Below are positions 16,516 to 63,892 of a DNA stretch of 64,000 nucleotides, piece after piece (the first letter of the stretch is position 1; each line of letters starts with the position of its first letter). The DNA lies in NCBI GenBank assembly GCA_020851635.1, contig JADZCJ010000140.1, forward strand, positions 186,001 to 250,000, read 5' to 3'. The notes under the pieces were generated by a model. That model had not been told where the DNA came from. It saw only the letters and a list, made by a program, of their open reading frames with translations, and did not search any database. The position numbers and the translations under genes were made by a program. Source of the stretch: Anaerolineae bacterium (GTDB lineage Bacteria > Chloroflexota > Anaerolineae > UBA4142 > SHND01).

Positions 16516-16965
16516 ATGAATCCCATGCTATTCAAACGTCTTGCCTCTTTTTTGCTACTGGCGAGTCTTTTTGCGCCCACGCTCATGATGACTTCGTGCG
16601 CATCCCAGCCCACCCAGCATGAGGTGCATCTGGCACCCGTGTCCATGCTGCCCGCAGAAATGCAGAGCGCCCCGGAAAGCGTGCGCACCGCGTACCAATT
16701 TGCGGTAGCGAATCCCGAACCACTCAAGAACGTGCCATGCTATTGCGGTTGCGGCGCGGTGGGTCACAACAGCAACTACGATTGCTATATTCAGGACGCG
16801 CCAAACAACGGCAAGATCATTTTCGACGAGCACGCGCTTGGCTGCAGTATTTGTGTGGATATTACGCAGGACGTGCTGCGCATGTCGCGGGATGGGCGCG
16901 CCCCGCCGGATATCCGCGCAGAGATCGTGAATACGTACAGTCGGTTTGGACCGTCGAACCAGTGA
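16516..16965 (+). CDS. PCYCGC-motif lipoprotein (Cys form)
   Basis: A 149-residue exported protein with signal peptide and a Cys in a lipobox-like position (MTSCASQ, about residue 27). The core is a PCYCGCG motif (residues 74-80) followed by DCYI and, later, LGCSICVDI with a CxxC pair. This matches the PCYCGC-motif family of unknown function, likely metal- or heme-related and on the outer face of the membrane. It starts a five-gene cluster with CuA proteins. A paralogue at 62809-63273 has UGA in place of the first Cys of the CxxC pair, so this gene provides the Cys-form comparison. Confidence 0.88.
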   Translation: MNPMLFKRLASFLLLASLFAPTLMMTSCASQPTQHEVHLAPVSMLPAEMQSAPESVRTAYQFAVANPEPLKNVPCYCGCGAVGHNSNYDCYIQDAPNNGKIIFDEHALGCSICVDITQDVLRMSRDGRAPPDIRAEIVNTYSRFGPSNQ

Positions 16966-19828: not shown

Positions 19829-20311
19829 ATGACCAAAAAATCACAGAGCAAGTCCAATCATCATCCGGTGCGGCGCAAGCCGATTCCGGCTGCCTGGATG
19901 CTGCTCGGCGGACTCGCGCTTGGCGCAATCGCGGTTCTGGCACTGGTGTGGATCACTTTGACGCCGAATCGCGGCGATGGCGGTCCGCCGCAGCTGCAGG
20001 TCAGTACCGAGCGTTTGGATCTGGGCAAACAGATTCTTGGAAAAACAGTGCGTGCGAGTTTTGAGGTGAGCAACAAGGGTACGGGTGCGCTCACTCTCAC
20101 CGTCCCGCAGCTTGCAACTGTGCTGGAAGGGTGCTGACCATCCCGAATTATCGTCGGTCAGACGATTCTAGGGCCCGGAGAAAGAACGACAATTTCCACA
20201 GATTTCATGATGCACGAAGGCATGGAGGGACCCCATCTCTTTGAGATCCCGCTTACGACGAATGATCCGGCACAGCCGCTAAAGAAATTGCTCATCGCGT
20301 CGGTTTGGTAA
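19829..20311 (+). CDS. DUF1573-like membrane-anchored protein, predicted selenoprotein (Sec103)
   Basis: The frame from ATG 19829 (AAGGAGGAG upstream) runs to TAA at 20309-20311 with one in-frame TGA at codon 103. Before it: basic start, one helix (about 22-43), and an Ig-like DUF1573-type domain (LDLGKQILGKTVRASFEVSN). After it the same frame continues for 57 codons with family-like sequence (IIVGQTILGPGERTTIS, MMHEGMEGPHLFEIPLTTNDP). The context is EGC-UGA-P; from memory, homologues have GCCPP, so UGA replaces the second Cys. Starting 18 nt after the UGA is a GGTCA loop on a 6-bp stem, as in E. coli fdhF. If UGA were a stop the domain would lose its last third. Redox function beside CuA proteins is inferred. 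Confidence 0.75.
20138..20168 (+). promoter_or_regulatory. Predicted bacterial SECIS element (gene at 19829)
   Basis: Stem ATCGTC (20150-20155) / GACGAT (20161-20166) with 5-nt loop GGTCA (20156-20160). Exactly 18 nt separate the UGA and the GGU of the loop, the same distance and loop start as in the E. coli fdhF element. GA/TC can extend the stem past a 3-nt bulge. Confidence 0.7.
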
Positions 20312-60363: not shown

Positions 60364-61020
60364 TTACGGTGCGGGTGTCGGCATCGAATGATCCATCGGC
60401 ATCGGTGTTACTTCAGGCAGCGGCGCGCTGCCTGATTTTTCCAACAATCCCTTCATATAATCGATTTCTGCCTGCTGCCCTTTGACAATGTTGTCCGCGA
60501 GACGTTTGACAATGGGCTGGGAGCCCTTTTGCAATTCCTCTTGCGCCATTGTCACGCCGCCTTCGTGATGACGAATCATTACCGTGAGAAATTGCTTTTC
60601 GAGTGCGGGGGAGGGCAGGGTTTTCAACGCGTTCACTTGTTCCTGCGTCGCCATGCCCATCATGTTTGCGGCTTGTCCGATCGGCGCGGCCGCTGGCTGT
60701 CCCCACATTTCGAGCCAGCCTTGCATCATGCCAATTTGGCCTTGTTGCGAAAGCATGATGTCGTACGCCATTGTTTTCAAGCCTTCGTCGTTCGTGCGGT
60801 CATGCAAATAGGTTGCCATTTCCACCGCTTGCGAATGATGTACGGTCATGTTTTGTGCAAAAGCAATATCGGCGCTCGAGACGCTGGGTTGGAAGAAGCG
60901 CGCGATCAGAAACCCAAGCCCGAACGCGGCGAGGACACCAACGATTCCGAGTGCCCACCACACGCGATTCGTTCTCGCTTCTTGCTCTTCCAACGGCGCT
61001 TGATCTGAATGGTCTTCCAT
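60364..61020 (-). CDS. DUF305-family exported protein
   Basis: A 218-residue protein: short cytoplasmic tail, one helix (about 22-44), then a DUF305 domain made of a helical bundle with the hallmark HHSQAVEMA near the first helix and IRHHEGGVTMAQEEL in the second. It ends with a Met/His-rich tail (MPMDHSMPTPAP). DUF305 proteins occur with copper genes and may bind copper through the HH pairs. GAGG lies 6 nt before ATG 61020. It overlaps the upstream gene's end region only at alternative starts. Confidence 0.88.
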   Translation of the reverse strand: MEDHSDQAPLEEQEARTNRVWWALGIVGVLAAFGLGFLIARFFQPSVSSADIAFAQNMTVHHSQAVEMATYLHDRTNDEGLKTMAYDIMLSQQGQIGMMQGWLEMWGQPAAAPIGQAANMMGMATQEQVNALKTLPSPALEKQFLTVMIRHHEGGVTMAQEELQKGSQPIVKRLADNIVKGQQAEIDYMKGLLEKSGSAPLPEVTPMPMDHSMPTPAP

Positions 61021-61028
61021 GCGATTCC

Positions 61029-61601
61029 TCATCCTAAAGGCGTTCCAAGCCCGCCGGCGCATGTTGCGCCGCGCTCAGGTGTAAAAGGTCCATTCTGGTA
61101 CGTCGAAATAAAGTTGGGTAAGCGAGGGTCATTCGCGTTGTTCATTTTGATCTGCGCACCCCACCCGCTCGCGGCAATCGCCGAGGGCAAGTCCTCAAAC
61201 GGCGAGAGCAAAACGTAACGCTGCCCGCGCGCGAGATTTTGCAATTGGCTAACCTGGTCGGCAGGCAAATCGGGTTGATATGTAATCCATAGTGCCCCAT
61301 GTTCCATCGAATGAACTGCATTTTCATTGCGAAGCGGCTGGTCATAGATGCCGCAGTTCTGCCAGACCGGATTATGTTCCCCACCAACCGGAGGGGTTTG
61401 CGCGTACGTCACTGCCTCGTCGGTGTGCCCTGCAGAGACGCTGGGAAAAATCTCAATCCCTTCTATCGGTCTCGTTTGTGTGGCAGAGAAAAGCAAGGTG
61501 CCCAGGAATACAAGTGCCACGATGCCTAATCCAATCCACAACCAGGGAATTTGCCGTGTCTGCCGTGCGGCTTGCGCGCGATTTTTATTTGCTCTAGTCA
61601 T
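61029..61601 (-). CDS. DUF3105-family membrane-anchored protein
   Basis: A 190-residue protein: short basic start, one helix (about 20-42), and a DUF3105 domain with the conserved YAQTPPVGGEHNPVWQNCGIYDQPL and NAVHSMEHGALWITYQPDL, then CAGG. The HxxW-Cys and HSMEHG motifs are likely metal- or redox-related. Function unknown. AAGGAGGAG precedes the ATG, and TGACA-T-TGTCA palindrome lies just upstream. It is followed by the DUF305 gene. Confidence 0.9.
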   Translation of the reverse strand: MTRANKNRAQAARQTRQIPWLWIGLGIVALVFLGTLLFSATQTRPIEGIEIFPSVSAGHTDEAVTYAQTPPVGGEHNPVWQNCGIYDQPLRNENAVHSMEHGALWITYQPDLPADQVSQLQNLARGQRYVLLSPFEDLPSAIAASGWGAQIKMNNANDPRLPNFISTYQNGPFTPERGATCAGGLGTPLG

Positions 61602-61872: not shown

Positions 61873-62757
61873 TTATTCAAAAGTTGAAAAACGAATAGTG
61901 TCGAGAATAACAAGGGCGACGGCGACCGCCAAACGGTAAAAGACAAACACATCCATTGAATTGCGCTGCAAGTAATTCATCAAGAAACGAATGGCAAGCC
62001 ACCCCGTAACTGCCGCCGCCGCAAACCCTACCGGGAACAGCAACAACCCGTCCGTGGTCAAACTGCCTGCCTGAAATTCTTGAAAGACATCCCAGCCGCT
62101 CTTGAGACTTGCGCCGGCAATCAACGGCGCGCTCAACAGAAATGAAAACTTGGCCGCGTCCGCGCGTTTCAACCCGAGAAACAATCCTGCCGTCAAGGTT
62201 GCGCCCGAACGCGAAACCCCGGGGAAAATGGCAGCCGCTTGGGCAAGTCCGATGAGGAGAGCGTCGAGCCATTTCAACTGTTGCGTTGTGCGAACGTGCA
62301 TTGCGAGATGGTCTGCGACATACAGTAGCGCGCCAAAAAAAGCAATGAGACCTGCCATCAAGAGCACGGCGCCGGACGATAATGCCTCGTTAGGAGCATG
62401 AAATAGTTCCTCCACGCGGCTTTCCAGGGACGCGCCCACTATGAATCCGGGGATGCTGCCCAGGACAAGCAACCACACGAGCCTGCGATTTGTGTCGTTG
62501 CCGATCTTGCGTTCGGCAATGCTTGCCACGCCCGCCCGAAATAAATCGATCCATTGCGTTCTGAAAAACCACAAAACTGCGACGAGGGTGCCGAGGTGCA
62601 ATGCCACATCAAACGGCAAACTCTCCAACACCGGATCATTCCATCCCAGGAGCCAGGGTACCAGAATTAAATGGGCAGAACTTGAGATTGGAAGAAATTC
62701 AGTCAGTCCTTGCAGGATACCCAGCGCGATGGCTTGAAAGATGAGCGTCAAGTCCAT
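61873..62757 (-). CDS. uppP: Undecaprenyl-diphosphatase
   Basis: A 294-residue multi-helix membrane phosphatase that recycles undecaprenyl diphosphate for peptidoglycan and other polymer synthesis. The UppP/BacA signatures are clear: LQGLTEFLPISSSAHLILVPWLLG (about 15-38) and PGVSRSGATLTAGLFLGL (about 178-195). It lies 51 bp after the PCYCGC selenoprotein candidate on the same strand. Confidence 0.93.
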   Translation of the reverse strand: MDLTLIFQAIALGILQGLTEFLPISSSAHLILVPWLLGWNDPVLESLPFDVALHLGTLVAVLWFFRTQWIDLFRAGVASIAERKIGNDTNRRLVWLLVLGSIPGFIVGASLESRVEELFHAPNEALSSGAVLLMAGLIAFFGALLYVADHLAMHVRTTQQLKWLDALLIGLAQAAAIFPGVSRSGATLTAGLFLGLKRADAAKFSFLLSAPLIAGASLKSGWDVFQEFQAGSLTTDGLLLFPVGFAAAAVTGWLAIRFLMNYLQRNSMDVFVFYRLAVAVALVILDTIRFSTFE

Positions 62758-62808: not shown

Positions 62809-63273
62809 CTATGGGGTCACGGTTTCTGTATTCGTTGGCTCTCCGAAACGGCTATAGTAGCCGTCAATGTAAGCGCGAATCTCGGCCAGAGACTTGCCCT
62901 CTTGCAACATTCGCATCGTGTCACGCACGATATCTACACAGATGCTTCAGCCCAATCCCATCTCGTCCCATTCCACCGTCCCATCGGGATTCACCTCTCG
63001 GACAAAACAATCTTTGACACTCTTGTGTGGCGCCTCACCGCTGTGACCGGCACCACAGCCGCAATAACACGGAATTTTTTGGAGCGTCTCTTGATTAGCG
63101 AGCGCAAACTGATACGCTTCGCGCACGTTCACAGGTGCGTTTTGCATTGCGACTGGCAAAGCAGACACCAGCGCAAGTTTTAACTTGTTCGGCGCTGTGC
63201 CTCCTCCGCACCCACCGAGCCAGGGCACCAGCGCGAGGAAGAGCAAGACGAATGCTGTCACTTGTTTCGTCAT
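62809..63273 (-). CDS. PCYCGC-motif lipoprotein, predicted selenoprotein (Sec109)
   Basis: The frame from ATG 63273 (AAGGAG upstream) runs to TAG at 62811-62809 with one in-frame TGA at codon 109. Before it: signal peptide with lipobox (LGGCGG), then PCYCGCG (68-74). After it the frame continues 45 codons without a stop (SICVDIVRDTMRM ... YYSRFGE). The paralogue at 16516 reads LGCSICVDI at this place; here it is LG-UGA-SICVDI, so UGA replaces the first Cys of a CxxC pair, giving UxxC. A hairpin with loop CGTGA begins its loop 21 nt after the UGA. Both sides of the UGA match the paralogue, so premature termination is unlikely. Confidence 0.78.
62915..62931 (-). promoter_or_regulatory. Predicted SECIS element (PCYCGC gene)
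   Basis: Minus strand: 6-bp stem ATCGTG/CACGAT (62931-62926 and 62920-62915) with 5-nt loop CGTGA; 21 nt lie between the UGA and the loop. The stem differs from that of the 19829 gene by one base pair. Confidence 0.65.
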
Positions 63274-63304
63274 GGTGACTCCTTTTCTACCCAAAAACCT
63301 TTTT

Positions 63305-63892
63305 CTATTGGTTACCTTCCTCAACCGGATAGCCCGCCTCGCGCCACGCGCGAAAACCCCCGCGAATCGCTTTCACATCGCTGTACCCGTTGTCCAACAA
63401 GACGCGCGCCGCACGGGCGCTTGATTCTTCAGCCGGTCAGGTACAATAGGTAAGAATCTCGGCTTGACGCGGCAAGGTTACATCGCCCGCCTCGATTTGT
63501 GCCAGGGGCAAAGAAACGGCATTCGCGATATGTCCTGCGGTATAATCGCCTTGTCCGCGGACATCAACGAAAACAGCATTCTTGACATCCCAACTCGTTT
63601 TGGCCTCAACGACCGATAGGCGCGGCACCTCGGGATAGGGGATTCCTTCGGCATCATGCACGTCCGGGACGCTGGCGGTGCCGGTAGAACTTGGTCGCAA
63701 TGCGCTAATAAGCAAAAAAGCAGCGACCGCGAGAACCAGCGCCCCGACGACCCATATCCAGACGGGAAAACGCGTGAGCCCACGCTCGACAGTCCGCTTG
63801 ACCGGAGTCCCGCACTTGGTGCAAAAGCGCTCTTCTGCGCGCAGCTTGTTCCCACAATTTGTACAATGAGAGAGTACGGCTGTTCTTGACAT
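63305..63892 (-). CDS. Zinc ribbon-membrane-rhodanese protein, predicted selenoprotein (Sec152)
   Basis: The frame from ATG 63892 (AAAGGA upstream) runs to TAG at 63307-63305 with one in-frame TGA at codon 152. Domains: zinc ribbon (CTNCGNKL ... RFCTKCG, about 10-28), a helix (about 45-67) and a rhodanese domain (about 88-190). At the active-site loop it reads YCT-UGA-PAEESSARAA; from memory this rhodanese group has YCTCP, so UGA replaces the catalytic-loop Cys, giving CTU. The frame then continues with the usual VLLDNGYSDVKAIRGGFRAWREAGYPVE. A hairpin with loop CGTGC starts 21 nt after the UGA. It lies 31 bp before the PCYCGC selenoprotein candidate. Confidence 0.78.
63406..63420 (-). promoter_or_regulatory. 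Predicted SECIS element (rhodanese gene)
   Basis: Minus strand: 5-bp stem GCGCC/GGCGC (63420-63416 and 63410-63406) with loop CGTGC, nearly the same loop and exactly the same UGA-to-loop distance (21 nt) as in the neighbouring PCYCGC gene. Confidence 0.6.

Follow-up and report, generated by a model that had tools for sequence, protein, structure and literature searches.

Two adjacent genes on the minus strand of the Anaerolineae DNA analysed here (the window, a stretch of 64,000 nucleotides) each contain an in-frame UGA, and comparison with homologs strongly supports both UGAs as selenocysteine (Sec) codons of genuine selenoprotein genes. They encode a rhodanese and a lipoprotein of the PCYCGC family and are likely to belong to one operon. 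We consider it probable that their products form a cell-surface pair for selenol/thiol redox and sulfane-sulfur chemistry which works with metal export. Both families have long been called selenoproteins without a function, and a link to metal export would suggest a function that can be tested and a rationale for using selenium. The two genes are composed as follows.

63305..63892, minus strand: Sec-rhodanese, 195 amino acids (PF13240 33.5 bits; PF00581 50.1 bits, above the gathering score of 22.2; NF041203 79 bits)
63439..63437, minus strand: UGA of the rhodanese gene, codon 152, read as Sec; CxU, two residues past the catalytic-position Cys
63420..63406, minus strand: predicted bacterial SECIS hairpin of the rhodanese gene, GCGCC-CGUGC-GGCGC, loop start 21 nt after the UGA
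63274..63304, minus strand: intergenic stretch of 31 bp with the Shine-Dalgarno sequence AAAGGAG for the PCYCGC gene
62809..63273, minus strand: Sec-PCYCGC lipoprotein, 154 amino acids (PF13798 109 bits; 109.1 against a gathering score of 25)
62949..62947, minus strand: UGA of the PCYCGC gene, codon 109, read as Sec; UxxC
62931..62915, minus strand: predicted bacterial SECIS hairpin of the PCYCGC gene, AUCGUG-CGUGA-CACGAU, loop start 21 nt after the UGA, with a seventh pair flanking

Each gene has a single in-frame UGA and terminates at TAG. The rhodanese consists of an N-terminal zinc ribbon (residues 9-31), one transmembrane helix and a C-terminal rhodanese domain with the active loop YCTUP. 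Its predicted topology is N-in, with the zinc ribbon in the cytoplasm and the sulfurtransferase domain outside. The PCYCGC protein, a predicted extracytoplasmic lipoprotein, has the lipobox LGGC, the UxxC motif and, in addition, an invariant CYCGC, H and C. A sequence-only reading of this DNA had described two neighbouring genes 31 bp apart, each with a UGA and with a hairpin loop starting 21 nt past it, and had taken both for selenoprotein genes of one operon. The coordinates and both loop distances proved correct, and the assignment is supported by five independent lines: the UGA column, the hairpins, selection, the Sec machinery and a homolog in cultured Thermomicrobium roseum.

Homologs were collected from 298 genomes of the class, of which 65 contain PF13798. 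In the PCYCGC homologs, one fixed column of the motif [H/M]xxxG[U/C]xxC is occupied by UGA in 25 and by Cys in 57 distinct sequences, and nowhere else in the aligned domain of these 82 sequences does an in-frame UGA occur. Hairpins were scored when 5 or more base pairs enclosed a 5-nt loop at the exact +21 nt register. By this definition 23 of the 25 UGA-type PCYCGC genes have the hairpin as compared to 11 of the 57 Cys-type genes (Fisher 4e-10), and synonymous-codon shuffles yield it at a mean of 35% and a maximum of 68%. The rhodanese hairpin is found in 58 of 59 UGA forms, against a mean of 17% and a maximum of 32% in shuffles. Hence the recurrence of these properties, which the earlier reading had held to exceed chance, is borne out by the enrichment over both Cys forms and shuffles. 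With a G within the first two loop bases and conservation in the UGA forms, the hairpins have the features expected of bacterial SECIS elements. An Rfam search of the window gave no matches, bacterial SECIS included. The PCYCGC stem shows compensatory pairs, namely CAUCACG/CGUGAUG in most homologs, CAUCGCG/CGCGAUG, and CAUCGUG/CACGAUG in the window gene, where the encoded residues are swapped from T..V to V..T.

The sequence downstream of the UGA is under purifying selection between this genome (G000) and its congener G003 (dN/dS 0.11 and 0.06). The genome encodes SelA, SelB, SelD and a tRNA-Sec with the anticodon UCA, and it is well supported that SelB and tRNA-Sec would decode each UGA as Sec, guided by the hairpin just after it. 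The SelD gene (G000:C107:51778-52704) itself has one in-frame UGA and is a selenoprotein gene. Correlating UGA forms with the presence of SelA was uninformative because 60 of 68 genomes have SelA. It is very improbable that the UGAs act as plain stop codons followed by remnant frames or read-through artefacts. RefSeq does end the homologous Thermomicrobium roseum gene at the UGA, but 57 homologs have Cys at this column, the sequence past the UGA is under purifying selection, the SECIS hairpins are conserved and the Sec machinery is complete, all of which speaks against such a stop. Nor do the relatives show a conserved truncation at these positions, since they have UGA or Cys only. The T. roseum gene in question, TRD_RS14940 of strain DSM 5159 (NC_011961.1; L247:5878-6330), is annotated to end exactly at the homologous UGA. 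Because conserved sequence and the same hairpin follow in frame, the annotation is probably wrong and the gene a selenoprotein gene of a cultured strain. Such genes can be cut at the UGA in databases, and a cultured type strain that appears to carry a PCYCGC selenoprotein makes the idea testable outside metagenomes.

UGA at CxU is present in 59 distinct rhodanese homologs. The motif is U-x-U in some of them and is shifted in three (GDRCUPP and similar). Several rhodaneses (L130, L132, L135, L145, L162) have two UGAs (YUTU), with Sec in place of the catalytic-position Cys.

The sequence-only reading had spoken of an undescribed pathway; its components, however, are on record. A 2026 inventory of 119 selenoprotein families lists in its Table 1 a 'CYCXC family protein (OS_HP4), PF13798, UxxC', credited to Zhang and Gladyshev 2007, and a 'Rhodanese form 3, NF041203, CxU' (PMC13188914). 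The best NCBIfam models, NF041203 rhodanese_LYCAU and NF041379 OS_HP4_CYCXC, are likewise labelled '(seleno)protein'. Neither selenoprotein family is therefore new; what is new is their association with each other and with metal-pump islands. By Pfam family and motif, including Sec at UxxC, the PCYCGC gene is a plain OS_HP4/CYCXC member. Against NF041379, however, it scores 57.1 bits, below the curated cut-off of 90, and the rhodanese with its 79 bits stays below the NF041203 cut-off of 115, which is reached by none of the 298 genomes of the class. On these scores, the window proteins would be outlying members or sister variants of the NCBIfam families. The window PCYCGC differs from OS_HP4 in forming a distinct clade with MGLGU, in lying in a P1B-ATPase island and in adjoining a second selenoprotein gene. 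The window rhodanese shares the CxU active loop and the SECIS with rhodanese form 3, but has the extra N-terminal zinc ribbon and transmembrane helix; this subtype is present in 8 of the 298 class genomes and linked to P1B ATPases.

A possible likeness of the PCYCGC protein to CcmH, the extracytoplasmic helical thiol protein of cytochrome c maturation, emerged from three comparisons. A fold search with its AlphaFold model (pLDDT 89.7) had two CcmH structures as its two best PDB matches, both weak (Z 4.2 and 4.0, Foldseek E 0.6). Alignment of PCYCGC to CcmH of the same class with hhalign gave 92.9% over 32 columns. In profile searches, PCYCGC matched CcmH weakly; the CcmH profile PF03918 did not match the window PCYCGC protein at E 5 and matched 8 of 62 relatives weakly (best 0.003). 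Each hint is weak, and we retained them because sequence profile, hhalign and fold search agree. Combined they suggest a CcmH-like thiol protein with similar C-terminal helices, in which the helix pair after the Cys motif matches. PCYCGC departs from CcmH in its CYCGC, in an additional H and C, and in carrying UxxC on the second helix. The PCYCGC profile also matched ferredoxin and saposin, hits that we discarded as Cys/helix noise.

The two subtypes occur together. All 6 of the 298 genomes with the window's UGA-PCYCGC clade are among the 8 with the zinc-ribbon rhodanese (Fisher 3e-11), which answers the question of co-occurrence raised by the earlier reading with 6/6 on one side and 6/8 on the other. 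The clade (tree support 100/96) spans four families (f1, f2, f17, f25). One genome that is 97% complete (G068) has the zinc-ribbon rhodanese and lacks this PCYCGC type. A draw of genomes from the phylum contained no further zinc-ribbon rhodanese outside the class, and scanning genome contigs with PCYCGC yielded a single contig, CALMZO010000090. The PCYCGC tree requires at least five changes between Sec and Cys. Since the Cys paralogues of the genus cluster together elsewhere in this tree, the Sec-PCYCGC clade probably spread together with its island. The six genomes may share the island through transfer, in which case the co-occurrence would reflect a jointly inherited module and not a biochemical partnership. 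A conserved direct rhodanese-PCYCGC operon was considered and rejected, as among the loci read no other genome has the two genes immediately adjacent; the genes are 2.6 kb apart in G126 and on separate contigs elsewhere. Between G000 and G003, dS is 0.16-0.27 for PCYCGC (vs L051) and 1.4-2.0 for the rhodanese (vs L172). Due to this far lower silent-site divergence of PCYCGC, it looks as if the PCYCGC-UppP segment had recently been exchanged between the two.

The genes around the operon itself point towards heavy-metal export. This context is hidden within the window because the ATPase gene starts beyond its end. The neighbouring genes are the following.

G000:C140:250020-252416: heavy-metal P1B ATPase, 798 amino acids, HMA domain, upstream of the operon, start 20 bp past the window end
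61873..62757, minus strand: UppP/BacA undecaprenyl-pyrophosphate phosphatase (PF02673 256 bits), directly downstream of PCYCGC, same order in G003 (L051)
60364..61062, minus strand: DUF305 protein (PF03713 154 bits), further downstream in the island

The adjacent ATPase has the motifs SPC (ASPCAL) and HEGST, which we take to mark P1B-4 pumps. Farther upstream, genes for another P1B ATPase, for two signal peptidases of LspA type and for an ArsR regulator belong to the island. The second ATPase (L192:12127-14220, minus strand) has an unusual metal-site sequence, ACSCSIALATP, at the usual CPC/SPC/APC site. In G003 one contig has ATPase followed by rhodanese(U) and ends with a gene for a short membrane protein, and another has, in order, PCYCGC(U), UppP, DUF305 and CDF transporter. 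G126 has ATPase, PEMT, PCYCGC(U), ATPase, rhodanese(U) and DUF1573. G017 has two loci, namely ArsR, ATPase, rhodanese(U), and CDF, DUF1573, PEMT, PCYCGC(U), ATPase. Of the 8 zinc-ribbon rhodaneses, 6 are at most 2 kb from a P1B ATPase as compared to 5 of 53 other Sec-rhodaneses (p=2e-4) when longer loci are used; on short loci alone the difference is not significant (3/8 vs 5/53, p=0.06). The rhodanese of G076 has no ATPase within the roughly 7.5 kb read on either side. Outside the phylum, Paenibacillus cellulositrophicus (L248, NZ_CP045296.1) has a PCYCGC gene with a heavy-metal P-type ATPase and an ArsR regulator in its vicinity.

The presence of UppP, LspA and a P1B ATPase in one island recalls pbrABC of Cupriavidus metallidurans, which combines a P-type metal ATPase, a UppP-family phosphatase and an LspA-type peptidase. 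The island might accordingly be read as pbr-type resistance to lead, zinc or cadmium, with the lipoprotein and the rhodanese as metal-sequestering or sulfide-producing accessories that aid precipitation of the exported metal, in line with the export-and-precipitation model for pbr (PMC3431237). We hold this to be rather unlikely. The adjacent ATPase has SPC and HEGST and not the CPC by which ZntA-type lead/zinc pumps are marked, the regulator recognised in the island is of ArsR type and not a MerR-type PbrR, and UppP adjoins the PCYCGC gene in G000 and G003 alone. The island further differs from pbrABC in its two selenoproteins and in the spread of its genes over about 13 kb.

We favour an extracytoplasmic selenol/thiol redox and sulfane-sulfur pair alongside P1B-ATPase export because of the CcmH-like hints and the Cys/Sec spacing in the rhodanese. 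The catalytic-position Cys of the rhodanese would take up a persulfide, and the Sec two residues on would resolve it, releasing sulfide or handing on electrons; the retention of this Cys, with Sec two residues on, fits such a resolving selenol. The UxxC pair of PCYCGC may hold thiols reduced or bind the exported soft metal. Selenols bind soft metals and process persulfides faster than thiols. In this scheme, Sec, SECIS, conservation, co-occurrence and the metal-island setting are established by the sequence comparisons, while the direction of electron and sulfur flow, the metal and the physical partnership are steps that we infer. Metal export as such cannot be the general role of the PCYCGC family, since most PCYCGC genes of the class are not in metal islands and belong to a respiratory CuA cluster, about 0.5 kb from a polyferredoxin gene and near CuA proteins. 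This setting, together with the CcmH-like fold hints, would suit a general pair for extracytoplasmic thiol redox or for maturation of cytochrome or copper sites (a CcmH-like reductant plus a sulfurtransferase) that sits in the metal island by chance. Such a reading appears doubtful to us, since in the loci read the window's PCYCGC clade is never in the CuA cluster and, in several families, is accompanied by the zinc-ribbon rhodanese and by P1B ATPases.

The window itself contains a CuA cluster, with two genes that the sequence-only reading had tentatively placed in one pathway with the operon.

16516..16965, plus strand: PCYCGC paralogue with Cys (HALGCSICVDI), in the CuA cluster and outside the two-selenoprotein module
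19829..20311, plus strand: third candidate, Ig-like (ASH/DUF1573-like), with the motif GCUPS, UGA at 20135-20137 and hairpin at 20150-20166

These genes belong to a different conserved cluster (PCYCGC-Cys, COX2-like, polyferredoxin, CuA-cytochrome c, GCUPP), and a UGA-type GCUPP gene is near 29 of the 57 Cys-type PCYCGC loci. The stem that the third candidate was said almost to share with the operon is incidental, because its hairpin has the loop GGUCA at 18 nt and because, in each family, the stem changes along with the coding sequence. As a selenoprotein, by contrast, the third candidate is real. Its homologs have UGA in 36 of 43 distinct sequences and Cys in 7. Each UGA form has a hairpin at 15-19 nt with a covarying stem, whereas a comparable stem is seen in only 1 of the 7 Cys forms, at a different loop. 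By these sequence criteria GCUPP is a real selenoprotein family separate from the rhodanese/PCYCGC module. The family was found neither in the 119-family inventory, where DUF1573 appears only with UGC, nor in NCBIfam, and its score against NCBIfam choice_anch_D is 26.8, below 45. GCUPP thus seems to be a selenoprotein family not listed so far, with members across the phylum that are linked to Cys-type PCYCGC and CuA genes, and it is arguably a more novel result than the operon. More speculatively, and with little confidence, one may picture a mobile Chloroflexota metal-resistance module in which the zinc-ribbon CxU sulfurtransferase and the CcmH-like UxxC lipoprotein would act as an extracytoplasmic selenol system and capture or precipitate metal exported by P1B ATPases, while in the same genome the GCUPP family serves the CuA cluster with the Cys lipoprotein. 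In the phylum draw, 18 of 301 genomes have GCUPP; apart from one short fragment, all matches contain one UGA. A second GCUPP copy is found in this genome at G000:C70:325-798.
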